The notes beneath the pieces were generated by a model. It was not told where the DNA came from and made no database searches. It worked only from the letters and a program-made list of their open reading frames with translations. 64,000 nucleotides of DNA, taken from the NCBI GenBank assembly GCA_012270795.1, contig JAAXHO010000279.1, forward strand, positions 1-64,000, in the 5' to 3' direction. A program made the translations under genes and the position numbers. This DNA comes from Candidatus Poribacteria bacterium. Lineage in GTDB: Bacteria; Poribacteria; WGA-4E; WGA-3G. Positions 30,927-46,694 of the stretch are shown in pieces (the stretch's first letter is position 1; each line of letters opens with the position of its first letter).

Positions 30927-33113
30927 CTAATTGGCTTGAAAATCTTCATATATCTGTTGTGCTTTAACTTCAACACCTATTAAGTAAGTTTGACCGATTT
31001 GCATTTTGTAAAGTTCGGTCAAGTCTCCACTTGTTTGACCGAAGACTTTGGCGTATCTTCGGCATTTGTCTTTGTTAGGTCCAGAGGCGTACGCTTTGGT
31101 TTTGGCATCTGTCCCAGATTTGCGGATTTCAACGAACATATCTGCAAACTTCAGATACGTGCCGTCTCCAACAAACCTGATGCTTTCCAGCGTCGTGAAA
31201 TCAAGTTCAGGGAGTGCATCTGTTAAAATCACACATGCTTGTTCCATATCTATTTTTCCTTCACGTAGTGCAATAGCAATTCCGAGAAAGAACAGATCAT
31301 TTTTATCGCGTTTTGCTTCGCCTTCCTGCTTGGAGGCACGGAGTTCTTCTGGGTTCGGTTCAGACTCGTTGTAATACGTAATATCTTCCCTCACATCACA
31401 TGTCGCAGTAATATTGCTCTCTTCAAAAATCGATGCAAGGTAGTCAGACAAAGGTATATCTGCTTGTTTGTAGTGTGCAGCAAGTGCAGTGACCAACACC
31501 ATAGACTCACCCGCAGATTTCTCCCGCATCGCTATAGCCGTTCTGCCACCGTGACTCCTAATAAGTTTTTCAGGTCCAGTAATCATGCCACCACTCTCTT
31601 CGCCCGCAAAGATGAGTCGTGGCTGCACACCAAGCGATACTGTTTCACCGTAAACATCTTGAACAACAACGGCAGCTTCAGGGGCATCAACTATTTGCTT
31701 CTCGATTTTCTTCATGATTGCAGCGATCTCTTTGAAACCAACAGGCACGTTAATCACATTCACTCCATTCGCAGCTGCCCATTGATCCCATGCAAGTGCT
31801 GATGGTGTAGTCTTAATCATGAACCGCGGATGGTGTTCCCAAAGACCAGCAGTCTTCAACTGTTTTGTATGAAAATCCATCAACATCAAAAACGCTTGAT
31901 TAGGTGTGTAAATTGTTAGCAATCTATCATCATCAAGTGTCAGGTAATCAACACCAAGACTTTGGAGTGTTTCAGCACGCGCTGCTTCCTCTATTTCACA
32001 GACAATAAGCCGATCCCCATCCGGATCAGTCGCCTGAACAATTGTACCCATAGGTTGATCCTTGAGTTTGGAAGCATAGTCAACAGATCGGACAACATCC
32101 AGAACACTAAAATCACAACCGAGATCATAAAATTCAGATGCACCTGTTTTTGGGTTCTTGTCCAGTTTACCGATATTGTGATAGAGTGGATCCGCTTCAA
32201 CGTGAAGCCAACGCACAGAGTTTGCTATTCCTAACCGCTCAAATATCGCACGCATCGGACGATACATACACCCTCCAACACAATCTACAACAATCGGAGG
32301 TTTCATCTCACGTATAAGGTTTAGATTCGCATCTGTCGCAACACCGCTTTTGAGATACCCGACATATAGCTGCACACCGTCGTGGAGTTCATCTAATCGC
32401 TCAAAATCTATATGCTTGTCGTTGACTGCACTAAACTGAATCGTATACCCATCTTTATCTGCGATTTTGAGTATCTCCTCAATCTTTTTGACAAACTGCA
32501 TAGACTCTTCGGGTAGATATTGACTCCCTTGATTATTTAGGTCTTTTGTTGCGTTTTTTGTGCTAACAGAATGGCTTGATGTGACATGCTCACCCCCATC
32601 CAAGTCAAGCATGAAAATAAGGAACGATGCCATCCAAATCGGCAATGTTCCAAACCCTTTTGGCACATAAGTCCGTATCCCCTGTGCTGCTTGTATCCGG
32701 GCAATAAACTCAACATATTTCTGTGAGTTGTACCGCACCTCACAACCAGCAAGTTTCTCTACGAGGTTCCCATCCGACTTTTCGTTCACGACGAGACTCT
32801 TTCCAAGTGTCGCCAAGATGATGCCAACCTGATTAATCGGAAACCGCGTATCCCACGGATACAAAATGTTTTGAGGACCACGTATCCCAGCGGTTGATAC
32901 TTGTGCTTCTTTTGCATAGTTGCGAAACCATTCCCAAAGATTCAACTGTTCAATCAATTCCTTGTTGAGTAGGAATGTAAATGCTTCAGGTTCGTCTTGC
33001 AGAAAAAGGGGTGATTTGATTGAGGCGGGGGTGTTTTGCTCAACAACTGCAAAGAGTTCTTGTTCTGTGCGGTTTCGTTTATCAAGGGACGCTACGTCTA
33101 CAGCAATAACCAT
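30927..33113 (-). CDS. Alpha-D-phosphohexomutase family protein, large and atypical
   Basis: A 728-residue phosphohexomutase-like enzyme, longer than usual (450-580). The metal loop is TDPDGDRLIV and the sugar-binding loop is GEESGGMITG, both intact; STAGIRG near residue 73 is the N-terminal family motif. The catalytic serine loop, normally T-[AS]-S-H-N-P, reads TSSHSVSTKN, so the serine and histidine are kept but N-P is replaced. It should move phosphate on a hexose (glucose, mannose or similar). ATG 33113 has GGAG 7 bases upstream; an extended -10 box (TGCTATAAT) lies at about 33151-33143. Confidence 0.8.
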   Translation of the reverse strand: MVIAVDVASLDKRNRTEQELFAVVEQNTPASIKSPLFLQDEPEAFTFLLNKELIEQLNLWEWFRNYAKEAQVSTAGIRGPQNILYPWDTRFPINQVGIILATLGKSLVVNEKSDGNLVEKLAGCEVRYNSQKYVEFIARIQAAQGIRTYVPKGFGTLPIWMASFLIFMLDLDGGEHVTSSHSVSTKNATKDLNNQGSQYLPEESMQFVKKIEEILKIADKDGYTIQFSAVNDKHIDFERLDELHDGVQLYVGYLKSGVATDANLNLIREMKPPIVVDCVGGCMYRPMRAIFERLGIANSVRWLHVEADPLYHNIGKLDKNPKTGASEFYDLGCDFSVLDVVRSVDYASKLKDQPMGTIVQATDPDGDRLIVCEIEEAARAETLQSLGVDYLTLDDDRLLTIYTPNQAFLMLMDFHTKQLKTAGLWEHHPRFMIKTTPSALAWDQWAAANGVNVINVPVGFKEIAAIMKKIEKQIVDAPEAAVVVQDVYGETVSLGVQPRLIFAGEESGGMITGPEKLIRSHGGRTAIAMREKSAGESMVLVTALAAHYKQADIPLSDYLASIFEESNITATCDVREDITYYNESEPNPEELRASKQEGEAKRDKNDLFFLGIAIALREGKIDMEQACVILTDALPELDFTTLESIRFVGDGTYLKFADMFVEIRKSGTDAKTKAYASGPNKDKCRRYAKVFGQTSGDLTELYKMQIGQTYLIGVEVKAQQIYEDFQAN

Positions 33114-33241
33114 CTGTGCGCTCCAAAATAGGTTTTGTGGTTATTATAGCATATACTGTAGATTTTTTGTGAGATAATTTAGTTGGGTTCATTAGGTTGA
33201 AATAGGTGGTTGGGACAATTATGTTTACTGAATCTCTCTTC

Positions 33242-33658
33242 TTAATTCTTCCAATTTTCCAAACGTAATCCCAATCCAACTATTCTTTCATAATCAGAAT
33301 CGGAGGCAACCAGAATCGCATCAAGAGCCAAAGCTGTAGCAGCAATCCAAAGATCGCATTCACCTAAAGACGTTCCTTGTTGTTCTGCAGCAACTTTTAT
33401 CTGTGCATAGGTATCGGCGACCTGCTCTGGAATTGGGTCGCATTGTACTTCAGTAAAAAGTTCATCTGCCTTTTGTTCAAGTTCTTGTTTTCTTTTACCG
33501 GAAGGAAGTCGCTGGATACCGAACAGAATTTCACCCTTAACGATGGTGCAAGTAAAATGGTAGTCCGACTCAGTCAGAGAATCTAAACGCCCTTTTACTC
33601 TGGAATTGTCCTGCATCAACAAACTACATGTTGATGTATCCAAGAGATACTTATTCAT
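33242..33658 (-). CDS. VapC-type PIN-domain toxin
   Basis: A 138-residue PIN ribonuclease. Acidic residues are in KYLLDTSTCSLL (Asp 7), IVKGEILFGIQRLP (Glu), GECDLWIAATAL (Asp) and LVASDSDYERI (Asp). It is a clear homologue of the toxin at 44309-44725: both share TSTCSLLM or SSTCSLLM, GEIL[FY]GIQRLP and a C-terminal L-E-N-W or V-E-N-W. The start codon overlaps the stop of the 587-residue upstream protein as TAATG, the coupling expected of an antitoxin gene. Confidence 0.88.
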   Translation of the reverse strand: MNKYLLDTSTCSLLMQDNSRVKGRLDSLTESDYHFTCTIVKGEILFGIQRLPSGKRKQELEQKADELFTEVQCDPIPEQVADTYAQIKVAAEQQGTSLGECDLWIAATALALDAILVASDSDYERIVGLGLRLENWKN

Positions 33659-35421
33659 TATTTATTACTTTCATCCGAATCAAAGGGCGAATCAAAACTT
33701 ATAGGTATTTTTCCCTCTTTTATTGACCAATTCAGTACTTCAATATCTTCATCAGTGAGATGTGGTGGCTTTTCCATCGCTTTGATGAGACGTTGCGCAG
33801 CGGGGTTTTTTCTTGTTGTATGTTCCCGTTTTTGATCTGACTCTGTCCAAGTACGAAACTGTTGTAATGTATCAAGTGCCACACTGGCTGAAACAGCGGG
33901 ATGTGCCGCGAGTAGAATCTGACCGATTTTTTTCTTACCAGTTTCACTGCTCTTACAGGCTTGTTCAATTTCGGGGACTGTAACCAAAGGCATTTTCGAT
34001 GTCGCGCGAAATTTTATTTTTTCAAGCCATTGGACAGAAAGCAGCTTTGCTAAACCTGTCAAGAAAGGCTCTAGCCATATTAGACTATCAACAAGATAAG
34101 TTGAAATGAGTATATGTGCATGAAAAAGATCTTCTGGACTTGTTTCGATATTATGAATAATCTTTAATGCTGCTGTTAACCTCTCTTCAGATTTAACATC
34201 TTGTGTTTTCATAACTTTTAGGGCGTTATTTTGATCTGCAGAGAACATTCTATCAATCAGATTAAGGACAGTTGTCATATTTTCTTTTATAGGTAGGTCT
34301 GACGAATTGGCGCGCCATATAGACAAAATTGCATGTGTATCTGCGCCTGCTGATAATTGAATAACAAGGGCTGCTACTGTCATAACAGTGATGTTCTCAA
34401 CAGATGTGAAATTGGGCACGTTTTGGACAGGTATAAAGCCAATTCCCTCTTCTCCGATCCCTTTTCCACTTTGGAGGTGCTTTTGTATTGAGTCGCAAGC
34501 ATTTGCCAATTCCTGTATACGTTCTGGTAGTTCATTGAGGGTTTTGTTTCTAAAGTCGTCCTGTGTTTTGAGTAGAGAGAGAAAGAGATTTAATTCTGGA
34601 TATGTATTTTTATCTGGGGTTTGCAGAGCATGCTGAAAAACTGTCGTTTCATGCCCAAATCTGTACTCAATTTGAGCAAGGTAGAGCCAAGAGTATCCTA
34701 TCGGAGAATCAGGTAAGTCTAAAACTTTTTCGTTAGTCTCCGTATTGCTACAAAAACCCGCAGGAGGTTCAAAAGGTAATGAAGCTTTATCTTCAATCCC
34801 ACACCATATTATCCATATCCATTTTATAGTGTGTTCTAATCGTTTTTTCAAAGTGAAATACTGAAGGTCTTCGCTGTCTTGAGGTAGTTTTTCAAAATCT
34901 TGCAACGCAAGATGTAATAGTTTTATGCAGTTCAACATATTGCCTGCTTTGAAGTGGGCAAATCCAGCATCTGCATATAAACCGATATATCTTTCAGTGT
35001 TCTCAATTTGCTGAGTCCTTTTTGCCCCCTCTTCAAGGAATGTAGCTGCTTGCTTCCAATTATCCAAATTGGCTGCACATATAGCAGCCCTTCTGTATTC
35101 TTCTAAAGGTCCAATGTTTACTTGTTCTGATGGATTTGTAACTATCTGTTCGTCGTGAATTACCTTGAGTTGAGAGGCAGGAAAACTCGTACACTTATAC
35201 ATTTGTCCATTGTCATCACTGAATTCCACCTCAAATGCATCGCCATCTGCAAGGATTTCAACAACAGTACCCACTTCTCCACGCTTAAGATTATGTTCAG
35301 GTATATCCTGCGTGAGTGTAACGACATCAAGGAGTTTTATTTCTCGTTTTTCTGTAGTTTTTTGTTGGTGCTCAGACTGATTTTCTATGCTCAAGTCGGT
35401 CTTTACTGAGTCTTTCGGCAT
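33658..35421 (-). CDS. Giant VapB-like protein: DUF4926 domain, helical repeats and antitoxin tail
   Basis: A 587-residue soluble protein. Residues about 28-92 match DUF4926: IKLLDVVTLTQDIPEHNLKR, then G-E-V-G-T-V-V-E and E-V-E-F-S-D-D. Residues about 105-530 are helical and TPR-like (RRAAICAANLDNWKQAATFL, YADAGFAHFKAGNMLNCIKL). The last 45 residues hold TDEDIEVL and SIKEGKIPISFDSPFD, matching TKEDADVL and SIREGEIPIRFDSVFD of the small antitoxin at 44709-45032. Since the next gene is the homologous VapC toxin, this protein probably neutralises it. A short antitoxin made from an internal start is another possibility. Confidence 0.72.
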   Translation of the reverse strand: MPKDSVKTDLSIENQSEHQQKTTEKREIKLLDVVTLTQDIPEHNLKRGEVGTVVEILADGDAFEVEFSDDNGQMYKCTSFPASQLKVIHDEQIVTNPSEQVNIGPLEEYRRAAICAANLDNWKQAATFLEEGAKRTQQIENTERYIGLYADAGFAHFKAGNMLNCIKLLHLALQDFEKLPQDSEDLQYFTLKKRLEHTIKWIWIIWCGIEDKASLPFEPPAGFCSNTETNEKVLDLPDSPIGYSWLYLAQIEYRFGHETTVFQHALQTPDKNTYPELNLFLSLLKTQDDFRNKTLNELPERIQELANACDSIQKHLQSGKGIGEEGIGFIPVQNVPNFTSVENITVMTVAALVIQLSAGADTHAILSIWRANSSDLPIKENMTTVLNLIDRMFSADQNNALKVMKTQDVKSEERLTAALKIIHNIETSPEDLFHAHILISTYLVDSLIWLEPFLTGLAKLLSVQWLEKIKFRATSKMPLVTVPEIEQACKSSETGKKKIGQILLAAHPAVSASVALDTLQQFRTWTESDQKREHTTRKNPAAQRLIKAMEKPPHLTDEDIEVLNWSIKEGKIPISFDSPFDSDESNK

Positions 35422-36015
35422 TATGGGATACCTCGTCTACAAGAGTTTTACGTGATGTATTAAGTAACGGGTATTTATTTCTGACAAAGATGTATAACAC
35501 AATGATAAACTCAAGTATATCACATTATCGGGCAAAAAATCAAGACATATTGCAACCTATACCTGCTCCAAAATCAGATTCCCATACATATCAACTATCC
35601 TTTGACACAGAGGCATTCATTTGTCCAGTTGTTTCAAATACATCATGAAACATCAACGGAAATCTATTGGATATTTATTGGATATCTATTGTTCCACACC
35701 AAAGACAATTTGGAAACTGACATACATGACGCGCTATAATATAAACAATACTATAAAAACGTGAGTTCAATAAAAGTCTAATTCAACTTTCATTGTCCAC
35801 TTTTCCTCACAAATAAGATTTCCCCTCGCTTGCGGGGGGATAAAGGGGGGTAAATCCCTGAAAATGACAAAAAATCCGGGATAAAATCCTTGAACAAACA
35901 AAATTCTAAACAGGAACACCCAAATTTGCGTAAGTCCTAGTTGATATCTTTTCACACTACATAAACATTGATAAAATATTGACCTCACCGTTATACAATC
36001 GGTGAGGTCAGTAAA
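35422..36015. other. Non-coding region left of hicAB
   Basis: Apart from the direct repeat at 35615-35852 it shows no gene. The first 100 bases should hold the promoter of the giant VapB-like gene (minus strand); its ribosome site is GAGGTATCCCATA before ATG 35421. After the repeat there are T-rich and A-rich stretches without a recognisable signal. Confidence 0.6.
35615..35852 (+). repeat. 238-bp direct repeat, left copy, flanking hicAB
   Basis: Matches 36654-36891 over 238 bases with only two differences and no gaps. It starts ATTCATTTGTCCAGTTG and ends with a CCCCTCGCTTGCGGGGGGAT hairpin. It also contains CTATTGGATATTTATTGGAT, a short internal repeat. Confidence 0.92.
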
Positions 36016-36201
36016 TTATGGCCGTGGAATTTCTAACTGTTTACAGATTTCCCTGGCAAGTACATTGTCAATCTCGGTGTGCCTTGGCACCGCAGTACGA
36101 GTGCCTATTTCCGGATTACCCCACAATGCGTGCCTCTTGCCTTCTCTAATCAAACTGCACCCGTGCTTTTTGAGATGCCTGATCAACTGCACACGTTTCA
36201 T
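36016..36201 (-). CDS. hicA: HicA-type mRNA interferase toxin
   Basis: A 61-residue double-stranded-RNA-binding-fold toxin: MKRVQLIRHLKKHGCSLIRE, then G-K-R-H-A-L-W with the catalytic His, and TAVPRHTEIDNVLAREICK. HicA toxins cleave mRNA and are blocked by HicB. The ATG overlaps the hicB stop by four bases (ATGA). Confidence 0.9.
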   Translation of the reverse strand: MKRVQLIRHLKKHGCSLIREGKRHALWGNPEIGTRTAVPRHTEIDNVLAREICKQLEIPRP

Positions 36202-36410
36202 ACAGCAATTTTTACTTCCTCATACTCGCTTTCGGCTCGGTGAACTGCCTCCTGTGAGTCATATTCTAAGACTTCAAGAAGTGTGATCTTCAGTGTTTCA
36301 AGCAATTCTTCACGTGTCCTTTCTTGACAAGTGACTCCAGATACTTCTCGTATCCAACCGATCCACCACTCACCGCGGCGTTGGATCTGTGCAGTATAGT
36401 ACGCTTGCAT
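36198..36410 (-). CDS. hicB: HicB-type antitoxin
   Basis: A 70-residue antitoxin with the partial RNase H-like fold: YYTAQIQRRGEWWIGWIREV and CQERTREELLETLKITLLEV. The C-terminal DNA-binding domain found in long HicB proteins is absent, so this is the short form. AGGAG precedes ATG 36410. Here the antitoxin gene comes first and the toxin second, the reverse of the classic hicAB order but common for this family. Confidence 0.85.
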   Translation of the reverse strand: MQAYYTAQIQRRGEWWIGWIREVSGVTCQERTREELLETLKITLLEVLEYDSQEAVHRAESEYEEVKIAV

Positions 36411-36653: not shown

Positions 36654-36891
36654 ATTCATTTGTCCAGTTGTTTCAAATACATCATGAAACATTAACGGAA
36701 ATCTATTGGATATTTATTGGATATCTATTGTTCCACACCAAAGACAATTTGGAAACTGACATACATGACGCGCTATAATATAAACAATACTATAAAAACA
36801 TGAGTTCAATAAAAGTCTAATTCAACTTTCATTGTCCACTTTTCCTCACAAATAAGATTTCCCCTCGCTTGCGGGGGGATAAAGGGGGGTA
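36654..36891 (+). repeat. 238-bp direct repeat, right copy, flanking hicAB
   Basis: Second copy of 35615-35852, same orientation, offset 1039 bases. The unit between the two copies is the hicAB module plus about 240 bases of non-coding DNA upstream of it. Confidence 0.92.
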
Positions 36892-36947
36892 GAACCGAAC
36901 TTACGTTATAAAAAAGCAAAATAAACCACAACAAACGTTAAAAATAC

Positions 36948-44121: not shown

Positions 44122-44196
44122 CAGAAAACCCGTTCCATCAACAGAGCGAAATTGAGTACCGCCCAACCGCTTAATGAAAAAAGTTTCATAGGAATG

Positions 44197-44302
44197 TCAT
44201 GCCCACAAACCAACATCCCAATATCCTCCTCATTATGTCTGATGAGCATGCCCCGATGTACAGCGGACCGTATGGACACCCGCTTGTCCAAACGCCACAC
44301 AT
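44197..44302 (+). pseudogene. Orphan 5' end of a sulfatase gene (106-bp direct copy)
   Basis: Matches 45274-45379 with three mismatches, covering the start codon (44199) and 34 codons of the sulfatase at 45276. After 44302 the sequence changes to the 3' end of the VapC gene and the frame stops at 44357. This copy has AGGAATGTC before its ATG, a better ribosome site than that of the intact gene, so it may carry the original leader, with the VapBC module inserted between the two copies. Confidence 0.88.
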
Positions 44303-44308
44303 AGAAGA

Positions 44309-44725
44309 TCAGTTTGTCCAATTCTCAACTTGCAATCCAAATTCTATAATCCTTTGAAAGTCAGAATCTGCAGAGACGAGAATCGTATCAAATGTCATAG
44401 CAGTTGCAGCAATCCATAGATCGTTTTCTGACATAGCTGTTCCAAGTTGTTCTGTCTGGCTTTTCAAGGTTGCATAATAATCAGCTGTTTCTTTAGGAAT
44501 TGCAAGATATGGCAATTCTTCAAATAGGTTTACGACTTGATTTTCTAAAACTTGTCGTCTGTGCCCTATCGGAAGTCTCTGAATTCCATACAGAATTTCA
44601 CCTCTAACGATTGTGCAGGTAAAAACATAGTCATTTACATCGGATAGGGAATCAAGGTGGGCAGTAACATGAAGATTGTGTGCCATCAATAGACTGCATG
44701 TTGAGGAATCAAGAAGATAGTTCAT
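44309..44725 (-). CDS. VapC-type PIN-domain toxin
   Basis: A 138-residue PIN ribonuclease with acidic residues in NYLLDSSTCSLL, IVRGEILYGIQRLP, SENDLWIAATAM and LVSADSDFQRI. Homologous to the toxin at 33242-33658 along its whole length. ATG 44725 has AGGTAA upstream and overlaps the antitoxin gene by 17 bases; a longer in-frame start at 44812 would run into that gene. Its stop codon lies 7 bases from the sulfatase fragment. Confidence 0.9.
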   Translation of the reverse strand: MNYLLDSSTCSLLMAHNLHVTAHLDSLSDVNDYVFTCTIVRGEILYGIQRLPIGHRRQVLENQVVNLFEELPYLAIPKETADYYATLKSQTEQLGTAMSENDLWIAATAMTFDTILVSADSDFQRIIEFGLQVENWTN

Positions 44726-45032
44726 TAATTTTACCTGTCGACTTATCAAAGACAGAATCAAAACGGATTGGTATTTCTCCCTCTCTAATTGATTGAAGGA
44801 GGACATCTGCATCTTCTTTTGTCACTTGATGTGATTTGTTAATCGCAGCCAATATCTTTTTTGGTTTACCTGTTGGTTCAAGATTCTGTATACTTTCCGT
44901 ATTGCTGATATCTTTTTTTGACAGTATTGATTTTACAAACAGAGATTCTATATACTTCTGTAGTTTTTCAATATCGGAATCAGGCATTTTCTCAATGGTA
45001 TCATGCAACCATTTTTTTGTTTCAACAGACAT
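44709..45032 (-). CDS. VapB-type antitoxin
   Basis: A 107-residue antitoxin. The first 50 residues are helical (TKKWLHDTIEKMPDSDIEKL); the tail holds TKEDADVL and SIREGEIPIRFDSVFD, the likely toxin-binding stretch, shared with the C-terminus of the 587-residue protein at 33658-35421. ATG 45032 has GGAGG 5 bases upstream; an in-frame ATG at 45068 does not. No DNA-binding motif is clear. Confidence 0.8.
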   Translation of the reverse strand: MSVETKKWLHDTIEKMPDSDIEKLQKYIESLFVKSILSKKDISNTESIQNLEPTGKPKKILAAINKSHQVTKEDADVLLQSIREGEIPIRFDSVFDKSTGKINELSS

Positions 45033-45110
45033 AATTTCCTCCATCTCCGTAATTTGCCCTGGGATCATAAACAGAGTAACGGTATAAGTAGTTTTAGCAA
45101 TTGTGCAATA

Positions 45111-45243: not shown

Positions 45244-45273
45244 ACAAAAAAGCCTTATATTGGATTAGTAGTA

Positions 45274-45379
45274 TCATGCCCACAAACCAACATCCCAACA
45301 TCCTCCTCATAATGTCTGACGAGCATGCCCCGATGTACAGCGGACCGTATGGACACCCGCTTGTCCAAACGCCACACAT
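45274..45379 (+). repeat. 106-bp direct repeat inside the intact sulfatase gene
   Basis: Second copy of 44197-44302. The two copies flank a 971-bp segment holding vapBC and its promoter region. Confidence 0.88.
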
Positions 45380-46694
45380 GGACAGACTCGCTGAAGGCGA
45401 TGTCACCTTCATAAATGCGTATTGCAATTCGCCGCTATGCATGCCGTCACGGATGTCTTTTATGATGGGGCGATATATCCACCACATTGGCGCGTGGGAC
45501 AACGCAGCACCTTTGCGTCCGGATGCTGTCACGTGGGCACATCTTCTACGCGATGCGGGATATGATGTTGTGCTTTCAGGCAAACAACATTTTGGTGGTA
45601 TGGATCAGTTGCACGGCTTTCGTGCGCAACTTGCCAGAGACTTACACGCTGAAAGAAAACATGGACTCACGGATTGGCGAAATGGCACACCAGCAGCATT
45701 CCATCCTTGGCAAGGACCTGCGCGAGCCGGTCCAGGAACGACAGAAGAAATTAAGATAGATGACCTGGCAGAGGCAGCAGCAATTGCCTATCTCCGCGAT
45801 ACTGCAAGGCAGGAACAGCCGTGGGCCCTCAATGTGTCATTCATTGCACCTCACTTTCCGCTGGTTGTACCGCAAAGGTTTTGGGACCTCTACCCACTTG
45901 ATAAGATTGACCTGCCCAACATTCCAGATGGACACCTTGAGAATCAGCATCCCGTGTATCAACGTATGCGTCGAATGTTCGGTTGTGTTGACTTTCCAGA
46001 GGATTTAGTTCGCCGCGCACGTGCTGGTTATTATGGATTGATTACCTATCTTGATGAGAAGATCGGGAATCTGATTCGGACGCTTGAAGAGACAGGTCAG
46101 TTGGAGAATACCGTCGTCATCTATACCAGTGATCATGGTGAGATGAACGGTGAACACGGTATGTGGCGAAAGTCGAATTTTTATGAGGCTTCCTCCCGTG
46201 TGCCGTTGCAGATTATGTTTCCTGATCGGATGTCTGCAGGCAAACACATTGATGAAGTGGTTTCACTTGTTGATTTGACAGCAACGTTGGTGGACATTGC
46301 GGGTGGACATTCCTTAAGTCAATTTGATGGCAATAGTCTGATGGGGTTGATACAAGGGACTGAGACAGCATGGAAAGATTTTGCGTTCTCTGAATATCTT
46401 GCTCATGGTGTTGCACGTCCGATGGCGATGCTGCGGAAGGGACGTTACAAATTCAACTACAGCCTTGGTGATCCGTGTGAACTTTACGATATTTCTGAAG
46501 ACCCTGATGAGTTTTACAACCTTGCAAATGAATTTAGGTATCAGGCAATTTGCCGTGATATGGAAACGCAACTTTTAGCAGAATGGGATCCCGTTGAAAT
46601 TGAGAAACAGGTGCGCGAGAGTCAACAGGCGCGGCTTCTCATTGATAAAGTGACTGCGGGAGAATGGCGTAAACCTCCTTCTGCCGTGATATAA
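45276..46694 (+). CDS. Sulfatase, type I (formylglycine-dependent)
   Basis: A 472-residue sulfatase. NILLIMSDEHAPMYSG starts the metal site; NSPLCMPSRMSFMMGRY holds the C-x-P-S-R core in which Cys is turned to formylglycine; VIYTSDHGEMNGEHGMW gives further metal ligands and GKQHFGG the Lys. There is no signal peptide, so it would act in the cytosol or leave by another route. The layout resembles choline-sulfatase-like or glycosaminoglycan sulfatases; the substrate is unknown. Its leader comes from inserted vapBC-side DNA. Confidence 0.92.
   Translation: MPTNQHPNILLIMSDEHAPMYSGPYGHPLVQTPHMDRLAEGDVTFINAYCNSPLCMPSRMSFMMGRYIHHIGAWDNAAPLRPDAVTWAHLLRDAGYDVVLSGKQHFGGMDQLHGFRAQLARDLHAERKHGLTDWRNGTPAAFHPWQGPARAGPGTTEEIKIDDLAEAAAIAYLRDTARQEQPWALNVSFIAPHFPLVVPQRFWDLYPLDKIDLPNIPDGHLENQHPVYQRMRRMFGCVDFPEDLVRRARAGYYGLITYLDEKIGNLIRTLEETGQLENTVVIYTSDHGEMNGEHGMWRKSNFYEASSRVPLQIMFPDRMSAGKHIDEVVSLVDLTATLVDIAGGHSLSQFDGNSLMGLIQGTETAWKDFAFSEYLAHGVARPMAMLRKGRYKFNYSLGDPCELYDISEDPDEFYNLANEFRYQAICRDMETQLLAEWDPVEIEKQVRESQQARLLIDKVTAGEWRKPPSAVI

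Follow-up and report, generated by a model that had tools for sequence, protein, structure and literature searches.

How does a VapC toxin come to stand behind a protein of 587 residues, when the second VapBC of the same stretch has a canonical short antitoxin, and what might this large protein do? The window, as we call the whole stretch of DNA analyzed, comprises 64,000 nucleotides (contig JAAXHO010000279.1 of assembly GCA_012270795.1) of a Candidatus Poribacteria bacterium, a sponge-associated host. The features on which the analysis is based are the following:

33242..33658, minus strand: vapC1, predicted PIN-domain toxin of 138 aa (Pfam, NCBIfam, alignment).
33658..35421, minus strand: putative compound antitoxin of 587 aa and deletion derivative of a nuclease-STAND-TPR-tail protein (locus comparison).
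35161..35334, minus strand: DUF4926 domain, residues 30-87 (Pfam PF16277, E 6.6e-22).
35125..35146, minus strand: deletion junction, about residues 93-99, ...VTN/PSEQVNIG..., the slash marking the junction (comparison with locus L016; identical in locus L003).
33847..35130, minus strand: alpha-helical TPR-like body, residues 98-525 (homology to STAND relatives).
33661..33810, minus strand: predicted VapB-type toxin-binding tail, residues 538-587 (tail homology).
30927..33113, minus strand: flanking gene of 728 aa, phosphohexomutase-like as judged from sequence alone, which anchors the locus (also the neighbour in L016).
36016..36201, minus strand: HicA-like gene upstream of the compound antitoxin (named by sequence motif, no profile match).
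36198..36410, minus strand: HicB-like gene (named by sequence motif).
44309..44725, minus strand: second VapC (57% identical to vapC1).
44709..45068, minus strand: second VapB, canonical short antitoxin of 107 or 119 aa depending on the start (weak DUF2281-like N-terminus).

The positions of the two open reading frames and the TAATG overlap between them were exact in the initial annotation: on the minus strand the junction reads ...AGTAATAAATAATGAATAAG..., so that one base is common to the stop TAA of the 587-aa gene and the start ATG of vapC1. The toxin is a PIN protein (PF01850, E 7.4e-14 in Pfam) and displays the acidic residues D7, E43, D102 and D120/D122, all in place in the alignment; its closest curated names in NCBIfam are tRNA(fMet)-specific VapC models, at E 9e-18 and under the model cut-offs, and its homologues with solved structure are FitB and VapC. 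The two toxins of the window, proposed from the outset to be homologous, share their 57% identity over ~137 aa. Glu replaces Asp at residue 7 (LLETT/LLETS versus LLDTS) in the otherwise intact VapC proteins of L005, L006, L014, L032, L035 and L036.

The HicA-like and HicB-like genes stand in an order that is repeated upstream of L003 and L005. This hicBA-like pair (36016-36410) is flanked by 243-nt direct repeats (35615-35857 and 36654-36896; 98% identical, 1039 nt apart), partial copies of which are found at 11 further places in the genome. The second vapBC (44309-45068) lies between 117-nt direct repeats (44189-44305 and 45266-45382; 94% identical, 1077 nt apart) that correspond to the 5' part of the downstream sulfatase-like gene, and it looks as if it had been inserted with duplication of the target.

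The DUF4926 domain read in the large protein was recovered by Pfam, and outside it the protein matched no Pfam, NCBIfam or PADLOC model. No DNA-binding domain of the AbrB, RHH or Phd-like types was found (Pfam reported DUF4926 only and NCBIfam nothing); the local canonical VapBs are likewise devoid of a recognised DNA-binding domain, their N-terminus being weakly DUF2281-like. An AlphaFold2 model of the 587-aa protein (13 rows) reached a pLDDT of only 54, with a helical core as its confident part, and Foldseek returned no significant match for the body; given the poor model, the fold of the body was taken from homology.

The C-terminal tail had been matched to the second antitoxin by the patterns TxEDxxVL and SI[KR]EG[KE]IPIxFDSxFD, and this match was borne out: the two share 45% identity along 56 aa, with E 7e-5 when the whole genome was searched. 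Moreover, when profiles of 10 fused tails and 8 canonical short antitoxins, aligned and built separately, were compared by hhalign, they matched with a probability of 99% and an E value of 5.8e-18; thus the similarity did not vanish at the profile level. Intermediate forms were also detected, since L117 and L119 encode short antitoxins having a tail near the fused type (KNPIA...) with VapC immediately after. That the large protein carries a VapB-type toxin-binding tail is therefore well supported by homology. In the tail of the window, Ser replaces the Lys/Arg of most tails (IPI[KR]FDS to IPISFDS), at a position that could touch the active site of VapC, a point that counts against the explanation preferred below.

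We then mapped all tails and all VapC of the family in 85 genomes of the Poribacteria phylum. Intact VapC (identity >=57%) was directly behind a tail ORF in all 33 cases, at a distance of -2 to 26 nt, and no intact VapC of the family without a tail was found among these 33, while 47 of the 90 tails had no adjoining VapC. Tails thus persist without VapC and intact VapC was never encountered without a tail, which is the pattern that an antitoxin predicts. The ORFs preceding intact VapC were of very different kinds: canonical antitoxins of about 100-130 aa, DUF4926 proteins, HicB-/AF2212-like proteins, the 587-aa protein and STAND proteins of 1075-1511 aa. In all, at least four unrelated N-termini (DUF2281-like, DUF4926, STAND and AF2212/HicB-like) carry the tail, and they share no sensor. 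The tail proteins of L036 (3545-4601), L139, L135 and L035, each followed by intact VapC, are fusions between antitoxins of different families, with the tail joined to AF2212-like and/or HicB-like antitoxins. In L122 (6575-6942) and L126 (1108-1257) a DUF4926-tail or a tail remnant lies just upstream of the STAND-tail-VapC unit, and these tandem copies could recombine.

Both the variety of carriers and the one-way dependence would agree with passive addiction, in which tail and VapC penalise the loss of the host gene and the body is a passenger that folds and carries the tail. A precedent is CreTA, which guards CRISPR-Cas (PMC12737573), and the comparison of chromosomal sites described below points the same way, as other genomes have at this site DUF4926 with the tail only, a remnant, or nothing. 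We consider this guard-like role possible, if a little short of an even chance. Two results oppose it: the constraint on the body exceeds what is expected of a passenger (see below), and the nuclease and NTPase have been deleted, so that addiction gave them no protection.

Where the body comes from was revealed by its relatives, 34 loci obtained by scanning genome contigs, all of them from Poribacteria; a scan of viral contigs returned no relatives. The homologues L004-L016, where intact, are 1424-1511 aa long. They start with a Cap4/DUF4297-type nuclease, in some cases preceded by DUF4926; an nSTAND3 NTPase and TPR-like repeats come next, the tail closes the protein, and VapC usually stands behind it. 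About 15 genomes carry such a receptor, complete or almost complete, ending in an antitoxin tail. In the 1502-aa protein of L016 both Cap4_nuclease (E 2e-6) and nSTAND3 (E 1.2e-6) scored above the gathering scores; the matches were weaker in the other orthologues, where the QVK, Walker A and Walker B motifs are conserved. PADLOC matched the orthologues to LmuA/DUF4297, and an AlphaFold model of the nuclease/NTPase part of L016, in spite of a pLDDT of 46.5, displayed a recognisable P-loop ATPase core. Body and tail of the window protein correspond to residues 1012-1502 of L016 at 88% identity, and the body aligns to residues 932-1337 of a Sphingopyxis STAND protein at 23% identity. The call of a helical TPR-like body was therefore correct as far as it went, but incomplete, the body being the C-terminal third of a STAND protein. 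Among the features of Avs/STAND proteins, the homology to the C-terminal helical repeats is present in the window protein (with a low-confidence helical model); the N-terminal nuclease effector and the STAND NTPase with its Walker motifs are absent from it, and the effector is absent genome-wide.

STAND homologues of 1332-1352 aa are also encoded on plasmids of Pseudomonadota (Sphingopyxis, Bradyrhizobium, Agrobacterium and Janthinobacterium). At best their alignment with L016 begins at residue 75-88 and reaches about 1430-1440, the tail boundary, where the proteins themselves end, which argues that the VapB tail is an add-on; none of those examined had a VapC directly downstream. DUF4926 and the tail, both foreign to these homologues, look like additions made to the STAND protein in Poribacteria.

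The relation between the short and the long forms became clear at the locus level. Positions 30969-35133 of the window, spanning the 728-aa gene, vapC, tail and body, match L016 without interruption at 84% nucleotide identity; beyond the body the match skips positions 1196-4000 of L016 and resumes at DUF4926. Since the match is continuous through the flanking gene, L016 represents the same chromosomal site and its protein is the full-length orthologue. What the window lacks by comparison is ~925 residues, that is, the nuclease, the NTPase and the first part of the solenoid, a deletion of 2.8 kb. L003, from a different genome and 79% identical to the window in the protein sequence of the body, has the identical in-frame junction (...VTN/P[ST]EQVNIG...), and these two genomes are the only carriers of the short form. 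In a tree of the body the window was nested among full-length proteins (100/100); a DNA-level tree paired it with L003 (80/85), a pairing that is not strongly supported, and around the junction its identity was highest to L003. The small number of carriers and the modest support for the pairing count against the explanation preferred below. We infer a single in-frame deletion that preceded the split between the window and L003, and that probably proceeded through short direct homology, TCAGAACA-like sequence being present in both flanks. In L003 (5558-5740) vapC has been deleted and the tail reads into the last VapC residues, leaving an orphan antitoxin whose frame is still open. A model in which the body was inserted into a short DUF4926-tail gene was rejected, as the body starts inside the solenoid of its homologues and the orthologue at the same locus, L016, is full length.

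As the source is a metagenome-assembled genome of 298 contigs, a misassembly of a full-length gene might be thought to have produced the 2.8-kb deletion. This is largely excluded, because another genome has the exact in-frame junction; in addition, a search of the window's own genome found no full-length copy and no nuclease or NTPase part elsewhere.

We also examined the site in other genomes of the genus. DUF4926 with the tail was found in G037 and G040 and a remnant in G041; G046 gave weak HicA/HicB-like matches only, and no recognisable copy was present at the site in G032, G034-G036, G038, G039 and G042, the contigs of G038 and G039 ending within a few kb. Genomes G043, G045 and G033 were left out of this comparison, having too little flank. 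Arranged as a series of reduction, the locus goes from full length (L016) to the short form of the window, to DUF4926 plus tail (L019, L028), to a remnant (L027) and to absence in the others. Such a series, together with the loss of vapC in L003, is what would be seen if the short protein were a decaying relic, a translated pseudogene-like leftover that neutralises VapC at most or does nothing.

The coding sequence itself makes such a relic quite improbable. No stop or frameshift interrupts the 587 codons; about 3 stops would be expected without selection on the window branch and 6 on the L003 branch, and 0 were observed. Pairwise dN/dS of the body was 0.18 between the window and L016 and 0.24 between the window and L003, as compared with 0.22-0.29 for pairs of full-length genes. 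Under neutrality about 29% of the changes should be synonymous. Of the changes unique to the window 12 were synonymous and 6 nonsynonymous, which corresponds to an omega of about 0.20 and departs from neutrality at p 0.001; those unique to L003 were 19 synonymous and 21 nonsynonymous (p 0.009). Small as these counts are, neutral substitution was rejected. This selection would have acted after the deletion, provided that the common junction is taken as one event, and the purifying selection on the shortened protein indicates that it is probably functional.

Taken together, we favour with a probability of roughly three in four the reading that the 587-aa protein is a compound antitoxin that arose by in-frame deletion, a reduced STAND-VapBC hybrid whose tail holds VapC; the remaining sensor body possibly, but not necessarily, gates the toxin. 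The ancestor would have been a defence-type protein composed of a Cap4/DUF4297-type nuclease, a STAND NTPase and a TPR-like sensor, which gained a VapB tail at its C-terminus, with vapC in translational overlap, and DUF4926 at its N-terminus. The in-frame deletion would then have taken the nuclease and the NTPase but spared DUF4926, the C-terminal portion of the solenoid and the tail, and its product would have survived because loss of the tail with vapC kept should harm the cell. Tail and VapC would be made together, the tail presumably wrapping the PIN domain and blocking its active site. Free VapC, probably a tRNA nuclease, would cut tRNA and stop translation, the trigger being loss or degradation of the large protein or, with less certainty, a change induced in it by a solenoid ligand. 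Binding, inhibition and trigger are thus predictions from sequence comparison, which itself provides the homologies, the junction, the shared locus, the one-way dependence of VapC on the tail and the purifying selection.

The initial annotation had proposed an antitoxin tail grafted on a sensor-like protein. The part concerning the tail stands, as it is of the VapB type and keeps company with VapC in all the intact cases; the body, on the other hand, is not purpose-built but the remnant repeat domain of a nuclease-STAND-TPR protein. Release of VapC by a ligand is plausible from this STAND parentage. In such a sensor-gated toxin, the solenoid would still bind a phage or stress ligand and free VapC, which would replace the lost nuclease as effector. 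The body does derive from the C-terminal repeats, which do the sensing in Avs proteins (PMC12931631), it is under purifying selection even after the loss of the NTPase, and in PARIS an ATPase keeps a tRNA nuclease sequestered until it senses a phage protein (PMC11455837). Nevertheless, we regard this sensor-gated toxin as unlikely, given that STAND signalling goes through the NTPase, here deleted, that the solenoid is reduced to its C-terminal part, and that L003 has the body without vapC. In the case of Avs5, activation needs the C-terminal repeat domain and function needs the NTPase motifs (PMC12931631), which makes a classical STAND switch unlikely in a protein without NTPase; a release resembling that of PARIS could still operate, since the effector VapC would be bound directly. 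That L003 keeps the short protein without vapC also indicates that the protein is not maintained by the toxin alone.

The other end of the full-length proteins displays a comparable arrangement. In relatives with DUF4926, the gene is often preceded by one for DUF6883 (about 116 aa, E 2e-27 to 1e-30) that overlaps it by ATGA, as seen in L007, L009, L012, L013, L021, L034 and L124; in the window no DUF6883 gene lies upstream of the 587-aa gene. From this arrangement DUF6883-DUF4926 would be another toxin-antitoxin pair, in which case both ends of the full protein would act as antitoxins. In L009 (606-5892) DUF6883, a 1508-aa DUF4926-nuclease-STAND-TPR-VapB tail protein and VapC follow each other with successive four-base overlaps, and its protein is possibly a double-headed antitoxin on an immune receptor. 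A broader reading, rather doubtful at present, sees the Poribacteria system as a toxin-armed immune receptor. The STAND protein would combine the roles of sensor, nuclease effector and antitoxin, the last towards one or two flanking toxins (DUF6883 through DUF4926, VapC through the tail); the toxins would be freed when the receptor senses phage or when it is lost or inactivated, and the window would be a minimal form in which the nuclease was swapped for VapC.

These results suggest that immune receptors can incorporate toxin-antitoxin pairs, uniting two bacterial defences usually kept separate, toxin-antitoxin pairs and NLR-like STAND receptors. The antitoxin would here be the physical C-terminus of the receptor, and the existence of full and reduced natural alleles allows the roles of guard and arm to be tested against each other. 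One predicted toxin-binding tail appears to have moved among its unrelated carriers, and DUF6883-DUF4926 emerges as a pair that may likewise be toxin and antitoxin. VapBC and STAND defence proteins are already known, as is the modular acquisition of genes by immune systems (PMC12799240); a limited search of open-access titles and abstracts turned up neither a STAND protein with a VapB tail nor its reduced form, and in the open-access literature no description of a DUF6883-DUF4926 pair was found, DUF6883 being unmentioned there and DUF4926 named in a single paper.

Compared with type II VapBC systems, the locus shares the PIN toxin with its acidic residues, nearest by profile similarity to the tRNA(fMet)-cleaving subgroup, the overlapping upstream antitoxin gene and the homologous C-terminal tail; it differs in the 587 aa of the antitoxin, whose tail is borne on DUF4926 and a STAND-derived solenoid. 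With Avs/AVAST and STAND proteins having a Cap4/DUF4297 nuclease, the likeness is in the body, homologous to the C-terminal repeats of nuclease-nSTAND3-TPR proteins, and the orthologues have all the parts, whereas the window protein lacks nuclease and NTPase and the Poribacteria members add the VapB tail and vapC. With the DUF6883-DUF4926 pair the window protein has DUF4926 in common but not the DUF6883 gene, which in relatives overlaps by ATGA. CreTA similarly ties a toxin and its antidote to an immune gene, making loss of the gene costly, although it is an RNA pair acting at transcription, while the window tail is a protein part of the immune gene itself. If sensing frees VapC, the locus would resemble PARIS (AriA-AriB) in having a large protein that sequesters a tRNA-cutting toxin; yet PARIS joins an ABC-type ATPase (AriA) to a Toprim nuclease (AriB), there is no homology, and the window protein has no ATPase. 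Finally, Hachiman, AVAST and other systems acquired nuclease-protease pairs (PMC12799240), likewise a modular effector pair, of which one member is fused to the defence protein and its partner is the product of a neighbouring gene, but composed of a pro-nuclease and a protease activated by cleavage, as opposed to a toxin and an antitoxin.
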